NCBI RefSeq assembly: GCF_000307775.2 | Contig: NZ_KK020676.1 | Span: forward strand, 933,487 to 997,486 | Reading direction: 5' to 3' | DNA length: 64,000 nucleotides | Origin: Stutzerimonas stutzeri KOS6 | Lineage (GTDB): Bacteria > Pseudomonadota > Gammaproteobacteria > Pseudomonadales > Pseudomonadaceae | Part shown: piece after piece, positions 21,502 through 37,620 of the stretch | Position numbering within the stretch: position 1 is the first letter of the stretch | Layout of the letters: each line of letters starts with the position of its first letter | The notes under the pieces: model-generated | What the model was told of the DNA's origin: nothing | Seen by the model: the letters and a program-made list of their open reading frames with translations, nothing else | Databases searched by the model: none | Translations under genes and position numbers: made by a program

Positions 21502-21968
21502 AACCCATCCTGCTGGTCGAGGACAACCCTCACGACCTGGAACTCACTTTGATTGCGCTGGAGCGCAGCCAGCTCGCCAACGACGTGGTGATCATGCGTG
21601 ACGGCGCCGAGGCGCTGGAATACCTGCTGCGCAGAGGTGCCCATGCCGGTCGTGCGGACGGCAACCCTGCAGTGCTGCTGCTGGACCTGAAGCTGCCCAA
21701 GGTCGATGGGCTTGAAGTCCTCAAGACGGTACGCGACACCGCCGAGCTGCGCAGCATTCCGGTGGTCATGCTGACATCCTCGCGGGAAGAGCCCGACCTG
21801 ATGAAAGCCTACGAGCTCGGGGTGAACGCTTACGTGGTCAAACCGGTCGAATTCAAAGATTTTGTCGCCGCAATTTCCGACCTCGGCGTCTTCTGGGCCG
21901 TGCTCAACGAGCCACCACCCGGTTCACTGCGGCTGAAGCGCGCGCGCAACAAAGACGAACAGAACTGA
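21495..21968 (+). CDS. Rcp1-like single-domain response regulator
   Basis: A 157-residue receiver domain protein. The acidic pocket is E9-D10, the phosphorylated aspartate is D64 (LLLDLKLPKVDG), followed by Thr/Ser in VVMLTSS and Lys in YVVKPVEF. A C-terminal tail (LGVFWAVLNEPPP) extends past the domain, as in the phytochrome partner Rcp1. There is no output domain. Its ATG lies inside the 3' end of bphP, seven bases of overlap, so it is most likely the direct phospho-acceptor of that kinase. Confidence 0.9.
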   Translation: MLKPILLVEDNPHDLELTLIALERSQLANDVVIMRDGAEALEYLLRRGAHAGRADGNPAVLLLDLKLPKVDGLEVLKTVRDTAELRSIPVVMLTSSREEPDLMKAYELGVNAYVVKPVEFKDFVAAISDLGVFWAVLNEPPPGSLRLKRARNKDEQN

Positions 21969-22034
21969 AACAGCGACTGCCCGCTGCATCTGGCGGGCCG
22001 TTCCGATGACTCCTGCTTGCTCGACCGGATGGAT

Positions 22035-24440
22035 ATGTCAGCGTCAAAGAACATCAGTGTGCTGTTCATCGAGGACAGCCCGCACGACGCCGAACTGGCC
22101 CAGCTGGCGCTGGAGCGCAGCGGTTACACCCTGCACACCGAACTGGTGTATGACCACGCCGGTGTGGTCGAAGCCCTGCAACGGCGCGAGTTCGACCTGA
22201 TCCTCGCGGATTTCATCCTGCCCGGTTTCTCCGGTAGCCAGGCGTTGCAGGAGGCGCGTCGACTGGCACCGCAGATCCCCTTCATCTTTCTTTCCGGGGT
22301 TTTCGGTGAAGAGCATGCCGTCAACATGATGCGCTCCGGTGCCGTCGACTACGTGCTCAAGCAGAATCTCGGCTTTTTGCCCAAGGCCGTTGAACGCGCG
22401 CTGGGCGAGGTCAACGAGCGCCGCCGTCGGCTGCAGGCCGAGCAGGCACTGCGAGAAGTCGAAGTGCGTGCGCGGCTGGCCATCGATGCGGCGCGGCTGG
22501 GCATGTGGGACTACGAACCGCAGAGCGGCACGCTGATCTGGGACACACGCTGCCGCAAAATGATGGGGGTCGCCCCGCAGGCACAGGTGAACATGCCGCT
22601 GTTCGAACGGCTCTGTCATCCGCAAGATCGCCAGCGGATACGCGAGCAGGTCGCCCGCGCTATCTCCAGCACGGACGCGGGAGAGTTCTGCACCACCTAC
22701 CGGGTGCTGCTCGACGACGGGCGCATCCGCTGGATAGAGACCCGTGGGCAGGCTTCCTTCGAAGGCGAAAGATGCACACGCTTCGTCGGCGTGGTGATGG
22801 ATATCACCGAACAAGAATTGGCGACACAAACGCTGCGGCAGATGAACGAAGCCCTCGGCGAGCGCGTTCAGGAGCGCACCCGCGAGCGCGACCGCACCTG
22901 GGAGCTGTCACGCGACCTGCTGGCAGTGACCCATCCGGACATGATGCCCATCGCGCTGAATCCGATCTGGGAGCACGTCTTCGACTGGTCGCTCGAACAA
23001 CTGATGGAGCATCCGCTGACCCGAATGGTCCACCCGGACGACCTGCAGGCCACGCTGGAGGAGACCGCCCGCGTCGGGCGCGGCAAGGTCACCAACCGCT
23101 TCGTCAATCGCATGCGGCACCGCGACGGCAGCTACCGCTGGCTGGCCTGGTCGGCGGTGGCCGACGGCGGTCGCATCTACTCGGCCGCACGCGACATTAC
23201 CAGCGAGATCGCTGCCATCGACAGGCTGGCCGAGGCCAACCGCGAACTACGTGCACAGATTCAGGAGCGCGAGCGCGTCGAGGCGACCCTGCAGCAGATG
23301 CAGCGACTCGAAGCCGTCGGCCAGCTGACAGCCGGTGTCGCTCACGATTTCAACAATCTGCTGACCGTTATCCTCACCAGCGCCAGCTTCCTGCAGAAGG
23401 ATCTGGAAAAGGGCGCGCCGGTGGAGCGCTGTCTGCGTCGACTGCAATACATACATGACTCCGGCGAGCGCGGCGCGATGCTGACCAGGCAGCTACTCGC
23501 TTTTGCCCGCCGTCAACAGCTGGCACCCACTGCGGTCGACCTCAACGAGGCCCTGGTCAATCTGCTCAGCCTGTTGAAAAGCACGCTGGGCGGCAGCGTC
23601 AGCATCGAAACCGACACCCAGGCGGACATCTGGCATGCGCTGGTGGACCCGACCCAGATCGAAATGATCATCCTCAACCTGGCGATCAACGCACGCGACG
23701 CCATGGGCGATGGCGGTCGGCTGACGCTGGCCACGCGCAACGTGCTGATCAGCGAGCCGGCCCGGCGCGCCGAGGACCCCGGTCCCGGCGAGTACGTGGT
23801 GCTTTCGGTAGCCGACACCGGCACCGGAATGAGCGAGGAAGTGCTGAGCAAGGCATTCGAGCCTTTTTTCACCACCAAGGAGGTCGGCAAGGGCTCGGGG
23901 CTGGGCCTGGCGCAGGTATTCGGCTTCGCCAAGCAGTCCGGCGGCGGTGCCCGCATCGAGAGCCGTGAGGGCATCGGCACGACGGTCGAAGTATTCCTCC
24001 CACGCACGACGGCCCCTCGCCAGCCAGAGCCCGTTGCCACGTCGAACGCCGACGCCGGCGAGGACTGCAGCCGGCACAGTATCCTGCTGGTGGACGACGA
24101 CCACAGCGTGCGCGAGGTGACCGCACAGATGCTGAAGAACCTGGGCTTCGCGGTTACCACCGCGGATAGTGGTGATGAAGCATTACAGCGCCTCGCCAAC
24201 GCTACCGATGTCGATCTGTTGCTGGCCGATTTTGCCATGCCCGGCATGAATGGCGGCGAGCTGGCGCGTACCGTGCGCGCCCGTCACCCCGAGCTGCCGG
24301 TGGTGTTCGTCACTGGCTACGCCGAGCTGTGCGAGCTGGGCCTGGAAGGCTATTCGGTCATCCAGAAGCCATTTCGCGAGGAGCAGTTGGCGCACAGGAT
24401 TCATCTGGCTTTAAGGGAAGGCAGTCTTACCGATGGCTGA
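22035..24440 (+). CDS. Hybrid histidine kinase (REC-PAS-PAS-HisKA-HATPase-REC)
   Basis: A cytoplasmic protein of about 801 residues. An N-terminal receiver (FIEDSPHDAELAQLAL, phospho-site D59 in ILADFILPG) is followed by two PAS domains, a helical linker, a kinase core with H437 in GVAHDFNNLL, ATP-binding motifs (NLAINARDAM, DTGTGMS, GSGLGLA) and a C-terminal receiver with D732 (LLADFAMPGMNGG). No membrane segment. The first receiver may accept phosphate from BphP; this is inferred from position. Starts at 22029 (ATG) or 22035 (ATG) are both possible; I used 22035, with GGA a few bases upstream. Its TGA overlaps the heme oxygenase start. Confidence 0.9.
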   Translation: MSASKNISVLFIEDSPHDAELAQLALERSGYTLHTELVYDHAGVVEALQRREFDLILADFILPGFSGSQALQEARRLAPQIPFIFLSGVFGEEHAVNMMRSGAVDYVLKQNLGFLPKAVERALGEVNERRRRLQAEQALREVEVRARLAIDAARLGMWDYEPQSGTLIWDTRCRKMMGVAPQAQVNMPLFERLCHPQDRQRIREQVARAISSTDAGEFCTTYRVLLDDGRIRWIETRGQASFEGERCTRFVGVVMDITEQELATQTLRQMNEALGERVQERTRERDRTWELSRDLLAVTHPDMMPIALNPIWEHVFDWSLEQLMEHPLTRMVHPDDLQATLEETARVGRGKVTNRFVNRMRHRDGSYRWLAWSAVADGGRIYSAARDITSEIAAIDRLAEANRELRAQIQERERVEATLQQMQRLEAVGQLTAGVAHDFNNLLTVILTSASFLQKDLEKGAPVERCLRRLQYIHDSGERGAMLTRQLLAFARRQQLAPTAVDLNEALVNLLSLLKSTLGGSVSIETDTQADIWHALVDPTQIEMIILNLAINARDAMGDGGRLTLATRNVLISEPARRAEDPGPGEYVVLSVADTGTGMSEEVLSKAFEPFFTTKEVGKGSGLGLAQVFGFAKQSGGGARIESREGIGTTVEVFLPRTTAPRQPEPVATSNADAGEDCSRHSILLVDDDHSVREVTAQMLKNLGFAVTTADSGDEALQRLANATDVDLLLADFAMPGMNGGELARTVRARHPELPVVFVTGYAELCELGLEGYSVIQKPFREEQLAHRIHLALREGSLTDG

Positions 24441-24981
24441 ACTGCGCGCCCGTCTCAGACAGGCCACGGCACCACTGCACGAGCAGGTCGATGCCGCCTT
24501 CTCCAGCTTTGGCCTGGATCATCCGGACGGCTACTGCCGCTTCCTGCGTGCCCACAGCCGGGTGCTGAGCGCCACGGAGATCGCGCTGGAGCAGGCCGGC
24601 ATGGAAAAATGGCTGGACGACTGGCCGGCGCGGGTTCGGCGCCATGCGCTGCTGGATGATCTGGCCGAGCTGAACTGCCCGCCGCCGGCACCGCTGCAAG
24701 TGCCTGGACTGAACGATATCGGCAGCTGCTGGGGCGCTGCCTACGTCCTGGAAGGATCGCGTCTGGGCGGACGGGTGCTTGCACGGCAGGTGCGCAAGTC
24801 CGACCCGGCAGCGCCTGTACGCTACCTGGAGCATGGCGAAGTCTCCAGGCTCTGGCCGACCTTCCTTGTCCACCTCGAGCAGCACGCGCCGGGCTGCCCA
24901 TGGGAGCGCATCCTGGCGGGCGCGCAGGCCACCTTCGGCCTTTTCACCTCGGCCGCCCTGCTGGAACAAGCCTGTCCCTAG
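24433..24981 (+). CDS. bphO: Biliverdin-producing heme oxygenase
   Basis: A 182-residue all-helical heme oxygenase. It opens ARLRQATAPLHEQVD, where H16 is the proximal heme ligand. GSCWGAAYVLEGSRLGGRVL is the distal-helix signature with flexible glycines. The reaction opens heme to biliverdin, carbon monoxide and iron, and biliverdin is the phytochrome chromophore. The ATG overlaps the end of the hybrid kinase gene, so bphP, the receiver, the hybrid kinase and this gene form one operon. It may supply both phytochromes of the region. Confidence 0.94.
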   Translation: MAELRARLRQATAPLHEQVDAAFSSFGLDHPDGYCRFLRAHSRVLSATEIALEQAGMEKWLDDWPARVRRHALLDDLAELNCPPPAPLQVPGLNDIGSCWGAAYVLEGSRLGGRVLARQVRKSDPAAPVRYLEHGEVSRLWPTFLVHLEQHAPGCPWERILAGAQATFGLFTSAALLEQACP

Positions 24982-25032
24982 CCCCCAAGCGAAGCGGTGC
25001 CACGGCGCCTTTCAGCCTTGAGGGGCGCTGAG

Positions 25033-28000
25033 TCAGGCAATCGCCCGATCAGCCGCCAACACCTCCACGAGCTGTTCTGCCGGCATCGGCCGGGCGAACA
25101 GGTAACCCTGGAACGCGGCGCACCCGTGGGCCAGAAGGAACGCCAGTTGCTCTTCATTTTCAACGCCTTCCGCAACGACGCCCATGCGCATGGTTCGACC
25201 CAGCGTGATGATTGCATTGACGATGGCTGCATCGTCCTCGTCTCCAGGGATGGCCCGGGTAAAGGACTGGTCGATCTTTACCTCGTCGAAGGGCAGTTGA
25301 CGCAGCCTGGACAACGATGAGTAACCGGTACCAAAGTCATCCAGCGAAATGCGCACCCCTAGGCTGCGCAAGCTGTGCAGCTTGGCGGCGATACTGCCAA
25401 TTTTCTCGTCCAGAATGCTCTCGGTCACTTCGAGTACCAACCGCTCTGCGCTGGCCCCGGTGGTCTGCAGTGCGCTGACTACATGGCTCACGAAGTTTTC
25501 CTGTCGTAACTGCTGGACGCTGACATTGACCGAAATTTTCAGGCCGCTCAACGCCTCGACTCTGCTCCACTGCGCCAACTGACGGCATGCCTCGGCAATG
25601 ACCCAGCGCCCCAGTTCCACGATAAAACTCGAACGCTCGGCCAACGGAATGAAGTCGGCAGGCGAAATCATGCCTTTGGCCGGATGCCGCCAGCGCAGCA
25701 GCGCTTCTACGCCATACGGTTTACGCGAGCTGTCGAACTGCGGCTGGTACCACAACTCGAACTGCTTCTGTTCAAGCGCTTTCCTGAGTTCGGCAGCGAG
25801 CATTGCCTTGCTGGAAGTAAGCGCATCCAACTGGCTGTCATAAACGCAATAGGTATTGCGGCCTCCGTCCTTTGCTTCGTACATCGCCAGGTCAGCGTGA
25901 CGCAGCAATTCATCGAGCTGATAGCCATCTCCGCGGAACAGTGCAACGCCAATGCTGGCGGTGCCGACAACCGATATTTCTCCTAGCTGGAGCGGCACAT
26001 TGAAGCTTTCGAGCAACTGCCGGGCCACATGCCGGGCCTGTTCGGTCGCCGCATCCTGATCGGTATGCAGCCCCTCGAGAATGATGACGAACTCATCCCC
26101 GCCCAGTCTCGCCACCGTATCACCTCGCCGCACGTTGCCGCTTAGCAGGCGGGCTATGGCGACCAGGAACTCATCCCCCTTGAGATGCCCATGGAGGTCA
26201 TTCAAGGTCTTGAAGTTGTCCAGATCGATGAACATCAGCGCAGCATGGCTACGATCACGAACCGTGTTGTCACGCGCCTGGCTCAACCGTTCCATGAACA
26301 GCCGCCGGTTCGGCAAGGCCGTCAAGGTATCGTAATAGGCCAGTCGCTTGATCTGCTCTTCGGCGCTGCGTTTCTCGGTGACGTCCGATCCCACTTTCAG
26401 AATCGAGCGCGGCTCGCCATTGGGCTCCCGAATCAGCGTCCAGCTCTCCTCGACGAACATCTTGCTGCCATCGCGGGCGCGGATCTGACAGAACTCCTGG
26501 TTGACCTGCTCCGCGTGCATGACTTCGCTGAACACGCGGAGCAGCGCCGACTCATCTTCATAGCACACCGACACGGACTGCCCCACGGCCTGCACTTTGC
26601 TCAGGCCATACATCTGTTCGGCGCCCTTGTTCCAGAAGCGAACCCTGAGATCCAGGTCAAGCACGACAATCGATTCACTGGCGTGATCGAGCAACTCGGC
26701 CTGCTCCTTAAGCAGACTGTCAGCTTCTATTCGCCTGATTTCGGCGGCAGCCCTGACCGCAAACACCTGCAATACGGACGTCGCCAGGACCGAGCGCTCA
26801 AGTGGCTTGCTGTACAGCAGGTAAATGAAGCCGATCACCTCCCCTTGAGCATCCAGTAACTGCCCCCCGAGATAGGAGCGGGCCTGGAGTCCGCCGATGC
26901 CTGCACCCGGGAAAATCCCGGAGAGGTTGTCAGGAATATGGCACTCGACGTCTCGCAGCAGGTTCTCACAGGGCGTGCCTTCAACGGCATAGGTAAAGTT
27001 GTCAATGCGAACACCGTCGATCACAACTGCAAGCGTGGTGGCCATAGCCGGAGAGCGGGAGGAGAGTCGAGCGATGCAGCCGCCATCGGCCTCAAGACCC
27101 GCCATCAGGTTGCGTAGCAACACGGAAAAGAACTGCTCATCTTCGAGACTGGCGACGCTGGCTGCCATATTCATCATCGCAGCCTGCATCTTTCGGCGTT
27201 TGGTCAGATCCTGCGCGCCACCCACGACGTGGTGAGCGACTCCATTCTCATCTCGCAAAAATGCAGCTTGCGAATACAGGGTCTCGATCTCTCCGTCCGA
27301 GCGAACATAGCGAAACTCGCGATCCCAGACGGTACTGCCACCGTGCAAGGCCTGTCTGAAACTTTGTATTACTCCGGCCTGATCATCAGGATGAACACCT
27401 TCCAGCCACTGGCAGACATACTGCTGCTGCCTCTCGCCAACTGCCGCCTTCTTCAGATTGTGGGACAGAATCTTGCGTTCCAGATCGAGTTCCCAAATGG
27501 AGTCATTGGTGACCTGGGCGATGGACAGCAAACGCTGTTCACTCCTGACCAACGCTTGTACTTGGGCGTTGATCTCCGTGACATCCCGGGCCGCCCCTTC
27601 TATGGAAACGACTCGGCCATCCTCCAGCATCGCCTGGCCGATAAGCTCGAGATAGAGAGCCTCCCGCTCGGGCCGCTTGATCAGTAATTGCAGTTTGAAA
27701 TTACTGAAATCAGCGCTGCAACGCCGAATCGCATCCAGAAGGGCCTTGCGCGCGGAGCGCTCCAGCATGCGCAAGAAGCGCCTAGGGGATAGATCACCAA
27801 TTGGACTGCCGAGGAGCAAGGCTTTCACTAGCGATCCGAGCTCAAGTTGGTAGCTCGGAAGCGACAATGACCATCCATCCACACCCGCCAGCTGAGAGGC
27901 ATTGCGCATGAGCGTTTCGTATTTTCTGAGACGTCGCTGGCGCTTGATATCCTCGGTGAGTTCGTGAGCGAGTATCAGTATTCTCCGTTCGCCCGCCTTG

Positions 28001-28944
28001 ACTGCGAAGTCCGCCAGTGTCAGACGGGTCCAGACAGAGAGGCCGGCGTTCTGGAAGCAGACATCAAGGGTGGCTACCTTTTCCTTGCGCTCACCTGTGC
28101 TGGCAAGCGCATCCGTGAACCTGACCCGACCATCCCATCTGACCAACGTCTGTAGTTCGATACCTAGCAGAAAATCACTATCCGCTTCGAGCATATCCCC
28201 GAAACTGTTGTTCACCGAGTGCACACGGCCGTGCTCATCGACAACCAACATGCCGATTGCGACTTCGTTAAATACCGTTGCATAAATCCGCTCGGACCTT
28301 GAGGCCTGCTCTTTTATGCGTTCACGCTGGTTTACCGCTCTCGCCCAGTGCATCAACAGCAGATAGAACAGCACCGCCGACGAAATGACCCCAAACACCA
28401 AAGCCAGCAAAATGCTGCGTTGCGTATTCTGTCTGTTCTGCACAAAGTTCTTGATAGCAGAAGAAATAGCACCTGCCTTATGGCGGATCTCGTCCTGCAA
28501 TGAGACCCCCTGATTAAGCTTCTCCAGCTGATAGCCAGCATCCCGTTCATAAAGACGCTGCCCTGCGAGATCGCGGGCGAACTTCACACGCTCGGTGACC
28601 AACTGCTCGAATACATTCAGATCGACATTCTCGAGCTCAAGTCCATGCAGCGATGCCTCCAACTTTTTTAAGCTGTTGTCCAAAGCCTGCTCGGCATCGA
28701 TCAACGGAGCCAGGAAAGGCATCTGTTTCGTCAGGTTATAACCACGGGCGGCCGTTTCTGCATCGACGCTGAGTCGCAGTACATTAACGAGTTGCAGTTC
28801 GGCCTGCATGGCCTGAGCAACTTGAAGATGAACAAGGTGCACCTGGTAAATGAGATAGAGCACAAGGCTGCTACCCACACCAATAGATACGCCAACGCGG
28901 ACAAGCCAATGGCTTGAGGCAATATAGCTAGCAACTCGTTTCAT
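25033..28944 (-). CDS. CHASE3-PAS-GAF-PAS-GGDEF-EAL membrane signalling protein
   Basis: About 1303 residues. Helix 1 is near residues 14-34 and helix 2 near 177-200; the periplasmic loop between carries the CHASE3-type DAETAARGYNLT. Several PAS domains follow, with a GAF domain around 590-760. A GGDEF domain with intact ARLGGDEF is near residue 946, preceded by RRGD five residues upstream (inhibitory site). An EAL domain with EALLRWRHP is near 1077 and DDFGTGYSSL near its end. Both catalytic motifs are intact, so it may both make and break cyclic-di-GMP. It uses more AT-rich codons than the cox genes. It converges on bphO with about 50 bases between. ATG 28944 gives a normal membrane-protein start. 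Confidence 0.9.
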   Translation of the reverse strand: MKRVASYIASSHWLVRVGVSIGVGSSLVLYLIYQVHLVHLQVAQAMQAELQLVNVLRLSVDAETAARGYNLTKQMPFLAPLIDAEQALDNSLKKLEASLHGLELENVDLNVFEQLVTERVKFARDLAGQRLYERDAGYQLEKLNQGVSLQDEIRHKAGAISSAIKNFVQNRQNTQRSILLALVFGVISSAVLFYLLLMHWARAVNQRERIKEQASRSERIYATVFNEVAIGMLVVDEHGRVHSVNNSFGDMLEADSDFLLGIELQTLVRWDGRVRFTDALASTGERKEKVATLDVCFQNAGLSVWTRLTLADFAVKAGERRILILAHELTEDIKRQRRLRKYETLMRNASQLAGVDGWSLSLPSYQLELGSLVKALLLGSPIGDLSPRRFLRMLERSARKALLDAIRRCSADFSNFKLQLLIKRPEREALYLELIGQAMLEDGRVVSIEGAARDVTEINAQVQALVRSEQRLLSIAQVTNDSIWELDLERKILSHNLKKAAVGERQQQYVCQWLEGVHPDDQAGVIQSFRQALHGGSTVWDREFRYVRSDGEIETLYSQAAFLRDENGVAHHVVGGAQDLTKRRKMQAAMMNMAASVASLEDEQFFSVLLRNLMAGLEADGGCIARLSSRSPAMATTLAVVIDGVRIDNFTYAVEGTPCENLLRDVECHIPDNLSGIFPGAGIGGLQARSYLGGQLLDAQGEVIGFIYLLYSKPLERSVLATSVLQVFAVRAAAEIRRIEADSLLKEQAELLDHASESIVVLDLDLRVRFWNKGAEQMYGLSKVQAVGQSVSVCYEDESALLRVFSEVMHAEQVNQEFCQIRARDGSKMFVEESWTLIREPNGEPRSILKVGSDVTEKRSAEEQIKRLAYYDTLTALPNRRLFMERLSQARDNTVRDRSHAALMFIDLDNFKTLNDLHGHLKGDEFLVAIARLLSGNVRRGDTVARLGGDEFVIILEGLHTDQDAATEQARHVARQLLESFNVPLQLGEISVVGTASIGVALFRGDGYQLDELLRHADLAMYEAKDGGRNTYCVYDSQLDALTSSKAMLAAELRKALEQKQFELWYQPQFDSSRKPYGVEALLRWRHPAKGMISPADFIPLAERSSFIVELGRWVIAEACRQLAQWSRVEALSGLKISVNVSVQQLRQENFVSHVVSALQTTGASAERLVLEVTESILDEKIGSIAAKLHSLRSLGVRISLDDFGTGYSSLSRLRQLPFDEVKIDQSFTRAIPGDEDDAAIVNAIITLGRTMRMGVVAEGVENEEQLAFLLAHGCAAFQGYLFARPMPAEQLVEVLAADRAIA

Positions 28945-29693
28945 AACCTGCACTCGAAAGTATGGAAGCGACTCGAAATAAAGGTGCAACGAAACACAGC
29001 TTTAAAAAACTTTTCTGAATCGCACGTGCGCTGCCCTGCCCGCTTCTAGCCAGCTGCCCAGACTGACCTGACAGCAGAGGTACAGCCTCGCGAACTACAG
29101 GCACTTACGCCTCAAAGCGTTAGCAATCGACAGGTTTTTCGCCCGGTAATGCCGGTAGTGGTCTCGAAGAAGAATGACGGCGTATCACGGACAAGCCCAA
29201 CGTACGCAGGGCATAAGCGCTGACCTCGCATCATGCCCATCCACGGATCGCTCTGCGCCGCAGACAGTGGAAGCTTAGGGGATGATGGCAACGAGCCACA
29301 ATAGCTTCGGTGCTAAATAGGCGAGTCGTTGCCAGCATCCGCGGCAGAGCACAAGCCAGGGGTGAAAAAACGCAGAATTTCGAAAACTTTTGCAAAGAAC
29401 TCGATTTTATTGCAGCGAAAAACCAGGCCCACACGGCCTTTGGTATGCAATTCATTTCAGGGGTTTTCCATATACCTACACTGGCAGGCAACGTTTCATG
29501 TGGCTCATGCCCGGCAATGAACTGTCCGGCACATAGCGAGCGCCGATGCCTGTTCAGGGACTTTCGATTGCCCACACGAGGCCTCAGGTAGCGATTTGAT
29601 CCAGCTATGCCTCGCTACTGCTCCAGCCTGCAACAGTCGTCTGCGGTGTCCGTACACAGGGATTCTAGAAGTCGATGAGCATGGCTGACTGCG
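28945..29693. other. 749-base gap without a recognisable gene
   Basis: This lies between the CHASE3-GGDEF-EAL start and the end of the phytochrome-core gene. It must hold the promoter of the former. A locally AT-rich patch occurs at about 29355-29480. I see no convincing open frame with a ribosome site, no RNA gene and no insertion-sequence ends. It may be the remains of a lost gene, but nothing proves that. Confidence 0.5.
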
Positions 29694-31154
29694 TCAGGAC
29701 AACAGGTCCAGCAACAGTTTTCTCAGGTTTAGCAGTTTGATGCGTGTTTCGTCGGGCCACTCACGGCAATAACCCAGCCGGGTTTCCACCCAGCGTTCGA
29801 ACGAGTTCCGCGGGGTGACAAGAAGACCGCCTGCATGCTGCTCTGCGGGTTTGTTGGGATTGCCGCCCCAACTGACTTCGTGAATTTCCTCGGTACGAAA
29901 AAGCAGACAGCGGGATTCGGTGCGACCGCGCTGGCGAACCGACACGCTGGCGATACCGGCGACTTCGGTCAGCAGCGGGTCCGGGCAGTCTACGATCAGG
30001 CTCTGGCTGATACTGATGCCATTTGCATCCTGTGTACCGGCCAGCCATGGATCGATAATTTCCATGCTCTCGGCATCGGGTATCACACCGGCCGTGAGCC
30101 TTTCGTGGCCGCTCTCCAGCAACACGCCCTGGGCGCCGAATTCATCCATGAGGTACTGGCTGAAGGCTGGCCAGGCCTGGGCAACAGTGCCGACATTGGC
30201 AATGCTGTCGAGCCACTGGTTCTGCCTGTCAAGATACTCGTGCAGCCCGAGGAGCAAGCCAGTGAGTAACTCGCGGACACGCAGGTTGTAGCTTTGCACT
30301 TGCTCAGCCAGCAGCTGTAGTTCAGGCAGACTCAGGCTTCTGGCTGTCGATGAGTGGCAGGAAAGCAAGGCCCGCAGGCCACTTGCGGTCTTTATCGGGA
30401 AGGAAATGGCACCCGCCACGCCCATGTTCTGCATGTAGCCTCGGTGTACGGGCGAAACGCTGCGCAGATCGACATACGAAAGATCAGGGACACTACCATG
30501 TCCGAGCAGGTCCACGGCCGCTGCCCCGGCGTCGGGAATGCTACGCCAGGGCGATTTCAGGTACAGCTCCCGGGCAACCCTGGGAATGTCGCTGGCGGGA
30601 AACCTGAGTCCAAGGTAAGTGCCTTTGCACTGTGGACTGCGAGCTTCGGCTATCACTTCCCCGGTATCGTCATTGCGAAAAAGGTAAAGCATCACGCGAT
30701 CAAAACCGGTATGCGCCTGGATGTGCTCGACCAGTTGTTGTTGGGCGCTGGCCAGATCATTGAGGTCGGCGAATGGGACGAAGCCCAGCAGTGGAATGGG
30801 GCCGTGGGCGGGTGGATTGCTTTCGTTCGGCAGCAGCTCCATCGTGATCGAGCCATTGCCAGAACGGGTTGCGACGGCTGAGGCGGGTCGCCGAGAAAGG
30901 GTCACATTGTTTCGCGCATAGCGACTGCCGGGCGCCTGCCCCAATTCCATGGCAAGCATCGTCAGTTCATCCGGCAGGACGGTTCCGATCAGTTGCTGGG
31001 GAGCCTGCGCCAGCCATTGCTCGATGTTTGCCGAAGCATGGGTGATGAGCCGATCACCGTCGGCAACCAGCAAGGCACCGTAAGCCTGGATGGCCCCGGA
31101 CAAGTGCAGCTGCTCCTGCTCGCACAGGTCGATAAACCCACCGATCATGGCCAT
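29694..31154 (-). CDS. Stand-alone phytochrome photosensory core (PAS-GAF-PHY, no output domain)
   Basis: A 486-residue protein containing only the sensory core. C11 in LCEQEQLHLSGAIQAYG aligns with the biliverdin-attaching cysteine of bacteriophytochromes. The GAF domain keeps D189-I190-P191 (FPASDIPRVAREL), H237 (SVSPVHRGYMQNMG) and the pocket His in LLSCHS. The PHY tongue is complete, with WGGNPNKP and the PRNSF motif at 448-452. After a short helix (LLNLRKLLLDLLS) the protein ends; there is no kinase, GGDEF or other effector. It overlaps the end of the upstream CheB-CheR-GGDEF-EAL gene by about ten bases (four if the ATG at 31148 is used), so it is translated with it and probably acts on it by protein contact. 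Confidence 0.92.
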   Translation of the reverse strand: MAMIGGFIDLCEQEQLHLSGAIQAYGALLVADGDRLITHASANIEQWLAQAPQQLIGTVLPDELTMLAMELGQAPGSRYARNNVTLSRRPASAVATRSGNGSITMELLPNESNPPAHGPIPLLGFVPFADLNDLASAQQQLVEHIQAHTGFDRVMLYLFRNDDTGEVIAEARSPQCKGTYLGLRFPASDIPRVARELYLKSPWRSIPDAGAAAVDLLGHGSVPDLSYVDLRSVSPVHRGYMQNMGVAGAISFPIKTASGLRALLSCHSSTARSLSLPELQLLAEQVQSYNLRVRELLTGLLLGLHEYLDRQNQWLDSIANVGTVAQAWPAFSQYLMDEFGAQGVLLESGHERLTAGVIPDAESMEIIDPWLAGTQDANGISISQSLIVDCPDPLLTEVAGIASVSVRQRGRTESRCLLFRTEEIHEVSWGGNPNKPAEQHAGGLLVTPRNSFERWVETRLGYCREWPDETRIKLLNLRKLLLDLLS

Positions 31155-34100
31155 GTGCGGTTTCCGTTTTTCAATTTTTCGGTGAAGTCGAGGTATTCCA
31201 GGGGACGGGAGCAGAGATACCCCTGGATGTAGTCGCAGCCATTATCGCTCAGCCATTGCAGTTGCCCTTCGGTTTCCACACCCTCGGCTACGGTTAGGAG
31301 GTTGAGGGCCGCTGCCATGGCCAGAATGGCCTTGGCGATGGCTTCGTCACTCTTGTCCTTGCCGCCGAGGCCATCGACAAAGGTCTTGTCGATCTTTAAC
31401 TCGGCCAGCGGGAGTCGTTTCAGGTAGCTCAACGATGAGTAACCGGTGCCGAAGTCGTCGATGGAGAGGCGAACGCCCATTTCCTTAAGTCGCTGGATAT
31501 TGCCAAGAGCTGTGCTGGTGCGCTCGAGCAGGGTACCTTCGGTGATCTCGACCTGCACCAGTGTCGCGGGCACCCGATATTGGTGCAGGCGCTTGGCAAG
31601 CATGTCCGGGAAGTGATCGTCCTGAATGCTGCGAGCGGAGATATTGACGGCAACGGGTACCGGGTCCAGCTCGTTGCCCTGCCAGTACGCCAGCGCCTGC
31701 ACCGCCAGCTGGATCACCTTGCGGTCGACCTCCTTGATCAGTCCACCGGTTTCTGCAGCCGGAATGAAGTCGGCAGGAGAGACCACCCCCATCTCAGGGT
31801 GGGTCCAGCGCAGCAGTGCCTCGGCACCAATCATGCGCCGCGGTGCTTCGGTGGTGAATTTGGGTTGGAACACCAGCCGCAAATGACATTCGCGCAAGGC
31901 CTCGCGCAATGCGGCTTCGAGGTTGCTCTGACGTTGAAGCTGCGCATGCAGCTCCGGCTTGAACAGTTCGAACCCGTTGCGCCCGTTATGTTTGGCCCGG
32001 TACATGGCCGTATCGGCTGCCTTGATCAGGGTAGTGCTGGTTTCGCCGTCATCCGGATAAAAGGCCAGGCCGATACTGCCGGTGACATACAGGTTTCTGC
32101 TGCCTACCTCTATGGGTTGGCGCAATGCCTGGATGATGCGCTCGGCCACGCGTTCGGTGCCGGCAAAGTCGATATCGGTCAGCACCACGGTAAACTCATC
32201 CCCGCCAAGACGTGCCACGGTATCCACTTCGCGCATAAGGCTCGAAAGGCGTCGTGACACCTCGACCAGCAATTGGTCGCCGATATCGTGCCCCAGGGTG
32301 TCGTTGATGCCCTTGAAATTGTCCAGATCCATGAACATCAGGGCGGCGATGCCGTTGCTTCGGCGCGCCTGGGCAATGGCCAGATCGAGACGATCCTGAA
32401 ACAGCGACCTGTTGGGTAGCCCGGTCAGGGCGTCGTGGGTTGCTAGGTATTCGGCCTTGGCCTGGCTTTCCTTGATCCGGGTAATGTCGGAGAAGACCGC
32501 AACATAGTAGTCGTTGGCGCTTTCGTGAATACGATTGATGGTCAGCCACTCGGAAAACAGTGCCCCGTCCTTGCGACGGTTAGTAAGCTCACCCTGCCAG
32601 AAGCTCCGGTTCTCCAGTCCGCTCCACATGGACTGATAGAGTTCCTGAGGATTTTCGCCTGAATCCAGCAAGGCGTCGATCTGGCAGCCAATGGCCTCTT
32701 CGGCGCTATAGCCGGTAATCCTGGTGAAAGCACTGTTGATCGAGCGAATGACCATGTGCCGATCAGTGACCACGATGGCCTCGCCGGCCTGCTCGAACAC
32801 CTTGGCGGAAATGCGTAGCTGACGTTCGGATATCTTGTGGGCGGTAATATCTTCCGCCTCGTTGATGATCAGGTTGGGACGCCCGTGCTCGTCCCGCAAT
32901 ACCTGATGCACGAACCTGAATACCCGTTCCTGTGCACCGGGCAGGACATGCTCGCTTACCACGACGCGCTTTTCCCGCAGGGCTTCCAGGTCGCAACTCC
33001 ACGAAGCTGTGGCAAAGGATTCGGGGAACAGCTCGAAGTCGTTACGGCCTTCTACCTTGCCATCGACCAGACCAAAGGACTCCAGAAAGGCCGGGTTGGC
33101 AAAGGTGTAGTTGCCACTCAGGTCCTTCATCGACAGCAGCACGATGGTGTTCGCCATCAGCGTTTCAAGCTGTGCTCTGGAACTGCGAAGGTCGGACTCG
33201 GTTTTACGTATGTCAGTCACGTCCACCAAGCTGCACACAAGCAACTCGACATGCTGTTCCAGACTCACCCCTGGGGTGATCTGCAGGTGAAACTGCCGGC
33301 CATGGTGTTCAATCAACAGCTCTTGCGGCTCGCGGCGGTTTTTGGCCTGGTCCAGGCAATCCTCGATGACGCGGAAATGGCTCGGTAGCCGTATCCGGCT
33401 GACATGCTGGTGGATGGCTGCGTGCTTGAAACCGAAAAGTCGCGCCGCTGCAGCATTGAAGCGCACCAGATGCTGTTCGCGATCGAACACCAGCACGGCA
33501 AAGTCAAGCGCATCATAAACGTGGGTGTACTCGTCGTTGAGGGCCTGAAGCTCACCAGTTCTGACATTGAGCTCTTCATTCAGGCTCATCAACTCCTCGT
33601 TGGTGGCCTGCAGTTCCTCGTTGGCAGCCTCCATCTCCTCGTTGGTGGCCTGCAACTCTTCGTTGGACGCCTGAGCCTCCTCGTTGAGCGACTGCATTTC
33701 CTCGTTAGCGGTCGCCAGCTCCTCGATCAGGGCCTGTAGATGTTCACGGGTGGCGACCAGTTCCTCTTCGGTGCTGCCACTGACCAGCGGCGACGCCTGC
33801 AGCGGCTCGGGCGCGGCTTTGCCGGTTTGCACAGACTCAAGGATGACCAGCAGTTGCTGTTCGTGCAGTCCGGGAACAGGCCTGACCGATAGGCGCCAGG
33901 CTTCACCGTCGAAGATGCGCGGGCGCCCGAAATGAGACTGAGGGTTCTTGTTCAACTGGTGCAGCAGCGAAATCAGCTCGCCACGGAAAACGCTGGTAAT
34001 CAGTTCGCTGACATGGCTGTTCGCGCGTCCTCTGGGTACATGGAAAAACTTATCCACCTCACCGGCCGTACGCAGGACATTTGCGTTGACGTCACACAGC

Positions 34101-35629
34101 GCGACGGTGATGCCAAGGTGCAGCACCACGGTTTCCAACAGATGCTGGATCTCGACATCCTGCCGGCGACGCGCCTTGATCACCGAGAGCGAGGGGTCGA
34201 TTGCCGCTACCTGCAGGCTGTGGCCACCTTTCTGCTTGCGAAAAATGCGCTCGCGGCGGTCCAGGGGAGCAAACAGGCTATCCGAGGTGCCGATACTTTC
34301 GCTGCGGCCGAGAAACAGAAGACCGCCGTGTACCAGAGCGAAATGGAAACGCTTCAGTACTTGCTGCTGAAGACTGCTGTCGAAATAGATCAGCACATTA
34401 CGGCAGGTAACCAGATCTATACGCAGGAAGGGTGGATCACTCACCAGGTTGTGCCGGGCAAACACAATCATGTCGCGCAGTCGCTTGCCTACCTCGTAAT
34501 TACTGCCAACAGGGACGAAATAACGCTGCAGGCGCTGTTCCGAGAGTATCTCCAGCGCAGCAGAGGGATAGAGCCCGCGACGTGCTACTGCCAAAGCTTC
34601 GTCATCTACATCGGTGGCAAATATCTGAATCGATGCGCTTACCCCCAGATGCGCCAGGGCCTCGTCAAACAGCATGGCAATGCTGTAGGCCTCTTCTCCT
34701 GTTGCACAGCCGGCTACCCAGGCGCGAATCTCGTTGCCCCGTTCGATGGCGTTGCGGCAGACGTCTTCGACGTAGGACCTGAGAGTATCGAACGCCGTGT
34801 TGTCACGAAAAAAGGCCGTGACGGAAATCAGGATGTCCTTGGACAGGTTGTCCAGTTCCTCAGGATGCTGTTTCGTCAGGAGCAGATAATCCTCTACCGA
34901 GGTATGACTGGTTGCGACCATTCTGCGGCGAAGACGACGGGATATGGTTCCGGGCTTGTAGCCGGAAAAGTCGATGTCCCGGCGTGACTTGAGCAGCTCT
35001 AGCAGTTCTGCCGGCAGCTCGGTATCGCCGTCCTGTTGTGGTACCTGCACTTGCAGGCGGGCCAGTTTTTCCAGTTTTGTGGCAATACCCTCCGGCGGCA
35101 GGATGAAGTCGGCCGCCCCTGCACTTATGGCGGAGCGCGGCATGCCGTCGTACTTGGCGGTTTCCGGGCACTGAACCAAGGTAGCGCCACCAGCGGCCAT
35201 GATTGCACGAAGGCCGGCTGTGCCATCCGATCCGGTTCCGGACAGCACGATGCCCGTAGCTTGCTCACCGTGCTCCGCCGCGAGGGAAATAAAAAAGTCG
35301 TTGATCGAAGGCTTGGGGAAAACGTCCGGCCTGGCCGCAAATAGCAGGAAGCGCCCGTCGCGGACGACGGCATTGCTGTTTGGAGGGACCACATAGACCA
35401 CACCGGCCTCAGGTATCACTCCGTCATCCATGGCGCAGACGGTGAGGCGTGTTTCCCGGGCGAGTATTTCTGGCAACAGGCTTTTGTGGGTCGGGGATAC
35501 GTGCTGCAACACCACATAGGCAAACGGCAGTTCCACATTCAGGGCATGCAGCAGATGCGAGACTGCTTCCAAGCCTCCTGCCGATGCGCCTATGGCAACG
35601 ATCGAAGCCGATGCCAGACGCTTTTCCAT
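31145..35629 (-). CDS. CheB-CheR-coiled coil-PAS-GGDEF-EAL fusion protein
   Basis: A soluble protein of 1494 residues. Residues 1-195 are a CheB methylesterase domain with the catalytic triad S16 (IGASAGG), H43 (LQHVSP) and D135 (GTGSDGT), but without the usual receiver. Residues about 205-470 are a CheR methyltransferase domain with the SAM motif GCATGEEAYS near 305. A heptad-repeat coiled coil lies at about 620-705, then three PAS domains. GGDEF (ARLGGDEF near 1141, with the inhibitory REVD before it) and EAL (EALLRWTHP near 1268, DDFGTGYSSL later) both look active. It is the first gene of a two-gene operon with a phytochrome core, so I infer light control of methylation and/or cyclic-di-GMP turnover. 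No chemoreceptor gene is nearby. Confidence 0.92.
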   Translation of the reverse strand: MEKRLASASIVAIGASAGGLEAVSHLLHALNVELPFAYVVLQHVSPTHKSLLPEILARETRLTVCAMDDGVIPEAGVVYVVPPNSNAVVRDGRFLLFAARPDVFPKPSINDFFISLAAEHGEQATGIVLSGTGSDGTAGLRAIMAAGGATLVQCPETAKYDGMPRSAISAGAADFILPPEGIATKLEKLARLQVQVPQQDGDTELPAELLELLKSRRDIDFSGYKPGTISRRLRRRMVATSHTSVEDYLLLTKQHPEELDNLSKDILISVTAFFRDNTAFDTLRSYVEDVCRNAIERGNEIRAWVAGCATGEEAYSIAMLFDEALAHLGVSASIQIFATDVDDEALAVARRGLYPSAALEILSEQRLQRYFVPVGSNYEVGKRLRDMIVFARHNLVSDPPFLRIDLVTCRNVLIYFDSSLQQQVLKRFHFALVHGGLLFLGRSESIGTSDSLFAPLDRRERIFRKQKGGHSLQVAAIDPSLSVIKARRRQDVEIQHLLETVVLHLGITVALCDVNANVLRTAGEVDKFFHVPRGRANSHVSELITSVFRGELISLLHQLNKNPQSHFGRPRIFDGEAWRLSVRPVPGLHEQQLLVILESVQTGKAAPEPLQASPLVSGSTEEELVATREHLQALIEELATANEEMQSLNEEAQASNEELQATNEEMEAANEELQATNEELMSLNEELNVRTGELQALNDEYTHVYDALDFAVLVFDREQHLVRFNAAAARLFGFKHAAIHQHVSRIRLPSHFRVIEDCLDQAKNRREPQELLIEHHGRQFHLQITPGVSLEQHVELLVCSLVDVTDIRKTESDLRSSRAQLETLMANTIVLLSMKDLSGNYTFANPAFLESFGLVDGKVEGRNDFELFPESFATASWSCDLEALREKRVVVSEHVLPGAQERVFRFVHQVLRDEHGRPNLIINEAEDITAHKISERQLRISAKVFEQAGEAIVVTDRHMVIRSINSAFTRITGYSAEEAIGCQIDALLDSGENPQELYQSMWSGLENRSFWQGELTNRRKDGALFSEWLTINRIHESANDYYVAVFSDITRIKESQAKAEYLATHDALTGLPNRSLFQDRLDLAIAQARRSNGIAALMFMDLDNFKGINDTLGHDIGDQLLVEVSRRLSSLMREVDTVARLGGDEFTVVLTDIDFAGTERVAERIIQALRQPIEVGSRNLYVTGSIGLAFYPDDGETSTTLIKAADTAMYRAKHNGRNGFELFKPELHAQLQRQSNLEAALREALRECHLRLVFQPKFTTEAPRRMIGAEALLRWTHPEMGVVSPADFIPAAETGGLIKEVDRKVIQLAVQALAYWQGNELDPVPVAVNISARSIQDDHFPDMLAKRLHQYRVPATLVQVEITEGTLLERTSTALGNIQRLKEMGVRLSIDDFGTGYSSLSYLKRLPLAELKIDKTFVDGLGGKDKSDEAIAKAILAMAAALNLLTVAEGVETEGQLQWLSDNGCDYIQGYLCSRPLEYLDFTEKLKNGNRTWP
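33575..33720 (-). repeat. 21-bp tandem repeats encoding a coiled-coil heptad
   Basis: Imperfect 21-base units encode successive NEELQAT, NEEMEAA, NEELQAT, NEELMSL heptads. Two nearly identical stretches, 33594-33612 and 33636-33654 (tcctcgttggtggcctgca), lie exactly 42 bases apart. The array keeps frame in multiples of seven residues. Confidence 0.7.
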
Positions 35630-35710
35630 AAATTTGATCGCCCCTGTGGACTTTTTACTGCAGATATAGGGGATTAGGCACTATGTCAAACTATGTCTAC
35701 GCGTTCGTTC

Positions 35711-35760
35711 CCATTATTTTTATCCATTTATTGCTTAACCAACTATCACCATTATTTTTA
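35711..35760. repeat. 12-bp direct repeats at the expected attTn7 position downstream of glmS
   Basis: CCATTATTTTTA occurs at 35711-35722 and again at 35749-35760. The glmS stop is at 35770-35772, and Tn7 usually inserts about 25 bases beyond it, near 35745, between the two copies. The segment is AT-rich compared with its surroundings. Tn7's own target duplication is 5 bp, so these repeats are not a Tn7 scar by themselves. Confidence 0.5.
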
Positions 35761-35769
35761 GCCAGACGA

Positions 35770-37620
35770 TCACTCCACCGTCACCGACTTGGCCAGGTTG
35801 CGCGGCTGGTCGACATCGGTGCCACGCAGCACGGCGACGTAGTACGACAGCAACTGCAGCGGCAGGGTATAGAGGATCGGCGCCAGGGCGTCGTGGATGT
35901 GCGGCATGTTCACCAGGAAAATGCCTTCGCCATTTTCGAAGCCCGCCTCGCGATCGGCAAACACGATGAGTTCACCGCCACGGGCGCGCACTTCCTGCAG
36001 GTTGGACTTGAGCTTTTCCAGCAGCTCGTTGTTCGGCGCTACCGTGACCACCGGCATGTCGGCATCCACCAGCGCCAGCGGGCCATGCTTGAGCTCGCCG
36101 GCCGGGTAGGCCTCGGCGTGGATGTAGGAGATTTCCTTGAGTTTGAGCGCGCCCTCCATCGCCACCGGGTACTGGGCACCGCGGCCGAGGAACAGTGTGT
36201 GGTGCTTTTCGGCGAAGTGTTCGGCAATCTTCTCCACCGTGGCGTCCATGGCCAGCGCCTCGCCCAGGCGGGTCGGCAGGCGGCGTAGTTCGTCGACCAG
36301 CTCGGCTTCGCTGGTTGCGCTCAGGGTGCCACGTACCTGACCCAGCGCCAGGGTCAGCAACATCAGTCCGACCAGTTGAGTGGTGAAGGCCTTGGTCGAC
36401 GCCACGCCGATTTCGGGACCGGCCTGGGTCAGCAATGTCAGGTCCGATTCACGCACCAGCGAGCTGATACCCACGTTGCAGATCGCCAGGCTGGCAAGAT
36501 AACCGCCGTCTTGATTGGAACGCTGCTTGGCATTGCGCAGCGCTGCAAGCGAATCGGCCGTCTCGCCGGACTGGGAGATGGTGACGAACAGGGTGTCCGG
36601 CTGCACCACCACCTTGCGGTAACGGAACTCGCTGGCAACCTCGACCTGACAGGGAATGCCGGCCAGTTCCTCCAGCCAGTAACGGGCGACCATGCCGGCG
36701 TGATAGCTGGTGCCACAGGCGACGATCTGCACATTGCGCACCTTGGCGAACAACTCGGCGGCCTGCGGTCCGAACGCCTGCACCAGCACCTGATGATCGC
36801 CTAGCCGACCTTCCAGGGTGCGCTGCACGACCTTGGGCTGCTCGTGAATCTCCTTGAGCATGAAGTGCCGGTACTCGCCCTTGTCCGCCGCTTCGGCACC
36901 TTCGTGGTACTGCACCGCCTCGCGCTGCACCGGCTGACCGTCGATGTCCCAGATCTGCACCGCATCGCGGCGGATCTCGGCGATGTCGCCCTCTTCCAGA
37001 TACATGAAGCGGTCGGTGACCTGGCGCAGGGCCAGCTGATCCGAAGCGAGGAAGTTTTCTCCCAGGCCCAGACCGATCACCAGCGGGCTGCCGCTGCGCG
37101 CAGCCAGCAGACGATCCGGCTGCTTCGCGCTGATCACCGCCAGACCGTAGGCGCCATGCAGTTCCTTGACCGCCGCCTTGAGTGCAATGGTCAGGTCACC
37201 GAGCGCCTCGAGTTTGTGATGCAGCAGGTGAACGATGACTTCGGTATCGGTATCGGAGTGAAAGACGTAACCCAGCCCCTTGAGCTGCGCCCGCAGCGCC
37301 TCGTGATTCTCGATGATGCCGTTGTGTACGACGGCCAGGTCATCACCGGAAAAATGCGGATGAGCGTTGCGCTCGCACGGCGCGCCGTGAGTGGCCCAGC
37401 GGGTATGCGCGATGCCCAGGCGCCCGGCCAACTGCTCCTGCTGCTGGGCGTGCTCCAGTTCGGCCACCTTGCCGTTGCGGCGCAGACGTCGCAGCGTTGC
37501 GCTGCTATCCAGCACGGCAAGGCCGGCACTGTCGTAGCCACGGTATTCCAGGCGCTTGAGGCCCTCGAGAAGGATCGCAGTGATGTTGCGTTCGGCGACG
37601 GCGCCAACGATGCCACACAT
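35770..37620 (-). CDS. glmS: Glutamine-fructose-6-phosphate aminotransferase (isomerizing)
   Basis: A 616-residue enzyme making glucosamine-6-phosphate from fructose-6-phosphate and glutamine, the first step toward UDP-GlcNAc for peptidoglycan and lipopolysaccharide. The N-terminal nucleophile is Cys2 ([12 protein letters not shown]), in a class II glutamine amidotransferase domain with RWATHG. Two SIS domains follow, with [10 protein letters not shown] and the typical end [13 protein letters not shown]. It lies two bases after the GlmR stop. Its 3' end contains the conserved TnsD recognition region for Tn7. Confidence 0.97.

Follow-up and report, generated by a model that had tools for sequence, protein, structure and literature searches.

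The 64,000-nucleotide (nt) stretch analysed here, termed the window (contig NZ_KK020676.1 of Stutzerimonas stutzeri KOS6, assembly GCF_000307775.2, positions 933,487 to 997,486), encodes a bacteriophytochrome that consists of the photosensory core alone and, directly upstream and overlapping it, a protein joining CheB, CheR, GGDEF and EAL enzyme domains. The sensor and this four-enzyme partner are probably one light switch in two pieces, because an effector-less sensor lies directly behind a four-enzyme partner in many species. Judging from sequence comparison, we consider it likely that the split bacteriophytochrome acts in trans on the overlapping CheBR-GGDEF-EAL protein, with light setting the level of cyclic di-GMP (c-di-GMP). 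Such signalling in trans had been proposed in the original prediction and is well supported by conservation, namely by a pairing retained in 53 of 56 informative loci, by a single branch for each of the two proteins and by covarying distances. This two-protein class of phytochromes is apparently widespread and undescribed.

The phytochrome and its partner in the window

The phytochrome gene (29694..31154; both genes lie on the minus strand) encodes 486 amino acids (aa), in which Pfam recognizes PAS_2 (residues 11-65), GAF (133-284) and PHY (313-484) and no further domain. Its stop lies 2 aa past the PHY match, i.e., at the end of the photosensory module; HisKA and HATPase matches are absent in Pfam, and the score against NF041576, the BphP histidine kinase family, is 166 bits, below the curated cut-off of 1040. 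No hidden output domain was found in the 704 nt that separate it from the next gene, where two open reading frames (ORFs) of at least 80 aa gave no Pfam match at E<=1. The predicted end without an output domain was thus borne out, and a missed downstream domain or a truncated pseudogene, raised at the time as what could overturn the prediction, was rejected, the ORF being intact and no such domain having been found in the gap.

The protein has the features of a bacteriophytochrome photosensory module, i.e., the PAS-GAF-PHY order, an N-terminal cysteine (C11), DIP (189-191), the GAF histidine (H237) and the PRxSF tongue (PRNSF at 448-452), all of which had been read from the sequence beforehand. 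C11, D189, P191, H237, P448, R449, S451 and F452 are invariant among 51 aligned core-only sequences and I190 is nearly so. Cys11, whose codon lies at 31122..31124, is presumably the biliverdin-binding cysteine.

The ORFs and coordinates first given proved exact, and the overlap of a few bases between the partner stop and the phytochrome start amounts to 10 nt (31145..31154). The two genes are separate reading frames, each with its own start and stop, and do not form the single chain of PadC or PadC-EAL proteins. A scan of 28900-36000 for sigma-70-like promoters gave no site, an uninformative count (shuffle mean 2.7).

The partner gene (31145..35629) encodes 1494 aa, arranged by ORF, Pfam and conserved residues as CheB-CheR-PAS0-coil-PAS1-PAS2-PAS3-GGDEF-EAL. 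The chain opens with a CheB methylesterase domain (residues 11-186; 35072..35599; Pfam CheB_methylest) with no receiver in front, and no Response_reg match was found in the partner with Pfam, as the prediction had it. This is followed by a CheR methyltransferase (residues 208-457; 34259..35008; Pfam CheR_N 208-256 and CheR 270-457), a cryptic PAS-like domain (about residues 507-599; 33833..34111), an 84-residue helix or heptad-repeat coil (residues 624-707; 33509..33760) found by its 21-nt repeats and in a predicted model, three PAS domains (about residues 706-804, 831-930 and 950-1050; 32480..33514; Pfam and model), a GGDEF diguanylate cyclase with an RxxD inhibitory site (residues 1063-1218; 31976..32443) and an EAL phosphodiesterase (residues 1239-1476; 31202..31915), the last two assigned from Pfam and residues. 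The predicted model of the middle part (residues 466-1226; predicted local distance difference test (pLDDT) 84.5, predicted template modelling score 0.40) gave the cryptic unit, the long helix, three PAS domains and GGDEF in this order, and the cryptic domain (block pLDDT 71-93) is read as PAS-like from the order of strands and helices in the model. A PDB search with this middle part as the query, rather than the cryptic domain alone, matched mostly GGDEF chains. The domain order first proposed for the partner therefore stands, except that its single PAS is replaced by about four PAS-like domains, three in Pfam and one cryptic in the model.

The window partner contains S16, H43 and D135, which we take to be the catalytic Ser, His and Asp of CheB, together with the GGDEF motif, the metal and RxxD residues and the EAL catalytic residues, whose roles are assumed likewise. 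Among 50 paired proteins, the CheB residues are kept in 48 (Ser), 48 (His) and 47 (Asp), the checked CheR residues and all five GGDEF letters in 50, and the RxxD residues in 49 (R) and 50 (D); the EAL residues are kept in 49 or 50, except at position 1415, where 42 proteins have Lys and six have Arg. Since the residues taken as catalytic are conserved to this degree, all four activities look usable, and the earlier description of an apparently intact CheB triad, CheR site, GGDEF inhibitory site and EAL agrees with both Pfam and residue conservation.

Distribution of the gene pair

The search for the gene pair across genomes that the original prediction called for was carried out as a profile scan of 84,980 species' genomes, with an alignment of the PHY C-terminus as the query (all seven seeds had a partner), and the following counts rest on the best 80 of 171 matches. 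As far as readable, 60 of these loci (L054-L113, including the near-copies L065/L066 and L107/L108 and partial loci) encode core-only phytochromes, and the other 20 (L114-L133) encode longer-chain phytochromes, of which 17 gave a kinase match. The upstream side was readable in 56 of the 60 (not in L063, L068, L091 and L097), and a CheBR-GGDEF-EAL partner lay directly upstream in 53 of them, compared with none of 19 longer-chain controls (the remaining one, L133, begins at a contig edge). The partner was a single chain of 1336-1545 aa in 43 loci, was cut by a contig edge in five, had a broken frame in three (L081, L106 and L113) and was split into CheBR and PAS-GGDEF-EAL genes in two (L084 and L095). 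With the chosen start codon, the phytochrome began before the partner stop in 27 of the 43 single-chain loci, and the nearest start was within 66 nt in all 43.

According to the record titles, the hosts include Halomonas/Vreelandella, Marinobacter, Marinobacterium, Nitrincola, Neptuniibacter, Idiomarina, Pseudidiomarina, Methylomonas, Methylobacter, Azonexus, Parazoarcus and Nitrosomonas, and a metagenome-assembled genome labelled Mycobacterium that we regard as doubtful. The pairing is widespread, so that its absence from all relatives, the other outcome that could have overturned the prediction, is contradicted.

A heme oxygenase gene follows the phytochrome directly in 42 of the 60 core-only loci; a contig end cuts three of these genes, that of L112 is a weak match (E 1.2e-9), and the downstream side of L111 is not visible. 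The gene is identified by a profile match to heme oxygenases of solved structure (E 8.6e-23 to HemO), by Pfam matches in 14 of 16 and by an invariant His.

Taxon samples, which overlap and are not to be summed, were searched as well. A single-protein scan of genome contigs found no relative. In the family sample of 398 genomes, matches at E<=1e-30 occurred in 208 and no close relative was seen; none of the non-self matches listed exceeded 38% identity, and all of these lay in open frames of 725 aa or longer. The partner was found at E<=1e-180 in one of 56 genus genomes, the window's own. Three better matches with short frames (493-581 aa) appeared among 369 genomes of the class; in all three, a heme oxygenase-like gene stood behind the phytochrome, and CheBR and GGDEF-EAL preceded it, split into two genes in G543 and joined in one chain in G645 and G476. 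Four matches at E<=1e-50 were obtained among 398 genomes of the phylum (two of core type, one in a long frame and the window's own), five among 121 genomes of the order of G645, and five among 101 genomes of the window's own order (itself, two long-frame and two core-type). Eleven core-type genomes emerged from these samples (G476, G543, G645, G772, G1125, G1136, G1215, G1227, G1235, G1273 and G1305), four of which recur in the survey above; the partner lay upstream in all of them but G1273, and the G772 partner and the G1125 phytochrome were each spread over two frames. As wider sampling found a family, a single-genome curiosity was rejected. The window partner had no match in viral contigs, and no plasmid record covered 80% of it; 130 plasmid records matched the phytochrome, all below 60% identity, and the matches listed were mostly annotated as kinases.

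Phylogeny and covariation

Both trees were quick ones, with support only from the Shimodaira-Hasegawa-like approximate likelihood ratio test and a program warning of long branches. In the phytochrome tree, 60 core-only and 34 longer-chain rows were divided by a single branch (support 100), and the sister of the window phytochrome was that of Marinobacter bryozoorum (L106; support 100). L054, L081, L084, L087, L091, L097 and L101 were left out, as were L118 and L125 from the longer-chain group; only the even-numbered loci of L004-L032 were used, and L106 and L113 were represented by their longest single piece. Similarly, 50 paired and 11 unpaired CheBR-GGDEF-EAL proteins were separated by one branch of the partner tree (support 100), from which two of the 13 unpaired loci (the kinase-ended L157 and L158) were left out and in which L106 was kept with most of its EAL domain missing.

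Over 44 pairs (without L106, L066 and L108), the phytochrome and partner distances were correlated (rho 0.711; maximum of 1000 permutations 0.336). This correlation shows joint inheritance rather than contact, because shared operon descent would also give it. Between the window and L106, the ratio of phytochrome to partner divergence was 1.59, against a range of 0.79-1.90 in the 25 closest pairs.

Sites conserved in the paired proteins and not in the small unpaired set were densest in the coil (12.3 per 100), PAS2 (8.3) and PAS1 (7.3), followed by GGDEF (5.9), CheR (3.8), PAS3 (3.3), CheB (3.1) and EAL (2.6), and this density hints at docking of the phytochrome on the tier of coil, PAS1 and PAS2. 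The correlation of segment distances with the phytochrome, being 0.770 for EAL, 0.764 for GGDEF and 0.693 for PAS1, points instead to these three segments as the candidate docking region.

Proposed mechanism and alternative explanations

In the proposed mechanism, heme oxygenase would supply biliverdin, which would bind Cys11, and red/far-red light would toggle the phytochrome between its Pr and Pfr states. Because PHY ends without an attached effector, the phytochrome would dock on the partner, and a light-dependent contact would pass the signal and shift the cyclase/phosphodiesterase balance, by which light would set c-di-GMP. As a less certain branch, light may also alter CheB/CheR activity on chemoreceptors. 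The data establish the linkage of the genes, their domain content, their conservation and their joint inheritance; we infer biliverdin attachment and Pr/Pfr photoconversion of the window phytochrome, a physical complex, the direction of signalling and light-dependent partner activity. The phytochrome might also stand in for the receiver domain that CheB lacks, as the original prediction suggested. More tentatively, and with the balance of our judgement leaning against it, a single red/far-red switch might control in trans two opposed enzyme pairs of the same polypeptide (cyclase/phosphodiesterase and methyltransferase/methylesterase), with light writing both the c-di-GMP level and a memory in chemoreceptor methylation.

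Several observations weigh against signalling in trans to the partner. No whole partner lies directly upstream in L099, L101 and L111, of which L101 holds just fragments of CheB and of a phytochrome. In G1273 (L177), the 7 kb upstream of a core-only phytochrome, which is accompanied by a heme oxygenase, likewise contain no partner. Conversely, no phytochrome was seen in the stretches read around 11 CheBR-GGDEF-EAL proteins, and therefore this architecture does not need one. The nearest relative, in M. bryozoorum (L106, 2901-8291), is frame-broken and has a decayed look, with most of EAL missing and the phytochrome in two frames. An adjacent heme oxygenase is lacking in the window operon and in the Marinobacter and Idiomarina/Pseudidiomarina copies. 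The coil, favoured above for docking, has the lowest distance correlation with the phytochrome (rho 0.293) and is the most conserved partner segment generally. Finally, residue 301, in the long helix behind GAF (30252-30254), is Leu in the window phytochrome and Arg in 58 of 59 others, a change that could tune or harm its signalling.

Phytochromes dimerise, and this genome also encodes a canonical BphP kinase; the core-only protein might thus act on another protein, for instance as a heterodimer with that kinase, the two overlapping genes being just co-regulated. The four loci without a whole partner directly upstream would fit this explanation, which we nevertheless regard as unlikely, since pairing with overlap or near-overlap was seen in nearly all informative loci and the covarying distances point to mutual partners. 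Less probable still is a bilin-binding subunit that informs the partner of a cue other than light, such as bilin or heme supply, temperature or redox state: phytochromes revert thermally and heme oxygenase is often the third gene of the locus, but the photoactive landmarks (Cys11, D189, P191, H237 and the PRxSF tongue) are invariant in the 51 rows. It appears very improbable that the phytochrome is a kinase-type BphP truncated to a pseudogene; the missing output domain and the phytochrome or partner frames broken in L051, L053, L081, L106 and L113 speak for it, but the conserved family already contradicts it, with its own branch and 60 members of similar make-up, and the window frame is intact and the divergence ratio to L106 lies within the range of close pairs.

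The upstream neighbours at the exceptional loci are a protein of 263 aa whose weak HAMP match falls below the cut-off (L099, 6034-8300), a receiver-domain protein (L111, 2788-6076) and a UDP-glucose/GDP-mannose dehydrogenase (L177, 5709-8695), and these may represent partner switches. Broken phytochrome or partner frames occur in L053 (7297-8813), L051 (182-4695), L081 and L113; such copies hint at repeated loss, or at draft-assembly errors. At L148 (1872-8371), the protein encoded directly behind an unpaired CheBR-PAS-GGDEF-EAL protein has 562 aa and an N-terminus that is KaiC-like by eye.

Comparison with known systems

In the usual description, phytochrome signals travel as motion from PHY into an effector that is fused to it. 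RpBphP1-PpsR2 and plant PHYB-PIF are cases of signalling in trans to a separate protein, in which the phytochromes carry C-terminal modules and the partners are transcription regulators, whereas the partner in the window is a four-enzyme c-di-GMP/chemotaxis protein from the preceding gene. Canonical BphP histidine kinases share the PAS-GAF-PHY core and a nearby heme oxygenase gene (as at 19225-24981) but have a fused kinase output and stand on the opposite side of the phytochrome tree. The 11 unpaired CheBR-PAS-GGDEF-EAL proteins match the paired ones in domain order and, for the most part, in conserved residues, but fall on the other side of their tree with no phytochrome next door; L157 and L158, outside the tree, are kinase-ended CheBR-PAS hybrids without a phytochrome.

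The nearest described kind are the fused PadC and PadC-EAL proteins, i.e., phytochrome-GGDEF(-EAL) fusions such as IsPadC of Idiomarina and BphG1 of Rhodobacter sphaeroides, in which, according to passages of PMC9587094, a biliverdin phytochrome core likewise works with GGDEF and EAL enzymes and signalling is motion from PHY into the fused effector. According to the same passages, PadC and PadC-EAL form a single chain in which a coiled coil links PHY to GGDEF, whereas the window system is two chains with a free PHY end, and its partner carries in addition CheB, CheR, about four PAS domains and a coil of its own. The pairing is not described in the titles and abstract openings listed by searches of the open literature, nor in the passages of PMC5812497, PMC8846402, PMC9587094, PMC8396549 and PMC1183210 that were consulted.

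If the proposed switch is real, a sensor core without a fused effector and with a fixed partner would allow a direct test of phytochrome signalling through a surface. In hosts such as Halomonas, Azonexus, Methylomonas and Idiomarina, red light would then be tied to c-di-GMP as well as to enzymes of chemotaxis adaptation, and the pair would represent a natural two-part optogenetic switch.

Probable acquisition of the pair by S. stutzeri KOS6

The pair lies within an insertion of about 10.8 kb beside glmS (24975..35766), which also carries a third c-di-GMP gene. In four relatives, chosen for a phytochrome near glmS from 55 same-genus glmS places, the aligned pieces of a resident block and of the glmS gene behind it are 73-188 nt apart, where the window has the insertion. 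The G + C content is 0.52-0.60 in the 25-36 kb region, compared with 0.62-0.66 at 18-25 kb and 0.63-0.64 at 36-41 kb, and is 0.59 again at 41-43 kb. The pair is best read as a gain by horizontal transfer in this genome, because the insertion is absent from the relatives, its G + C content is lower, and the partner was found in just one of the 56 genus genomes. Neither this recent insertion nor the heme oxygenase that is usually the third gene of the operon had been noticed in the original prediction. No transposon ends were recognized, none of the repeats found bracketing the insertion.

The resident block is an apparent operon on the plus strand (19225-24981). It comprises genes for a canonical BphP kinase, for a response regulator and for a hybrid kinase, together with a heme oxygenase-like gene that is divergent in sequence (24433..24981; phmmer E 7.1e-4 to HemO; no Pfam or NCBIfam match at 1e-3). 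The last gene could be a biliverdin source for the neighbouring pair, which may draw on it. The third c-di-GMP gene of the insertion (25033-28989, minus strand) encodes CHASE3-PAS-GGDEF-EAL according to Pfam, and shares with the GGDEF/EAL DNA of the pair three stretches, each 70-99 nt long, at 72-73% identity.

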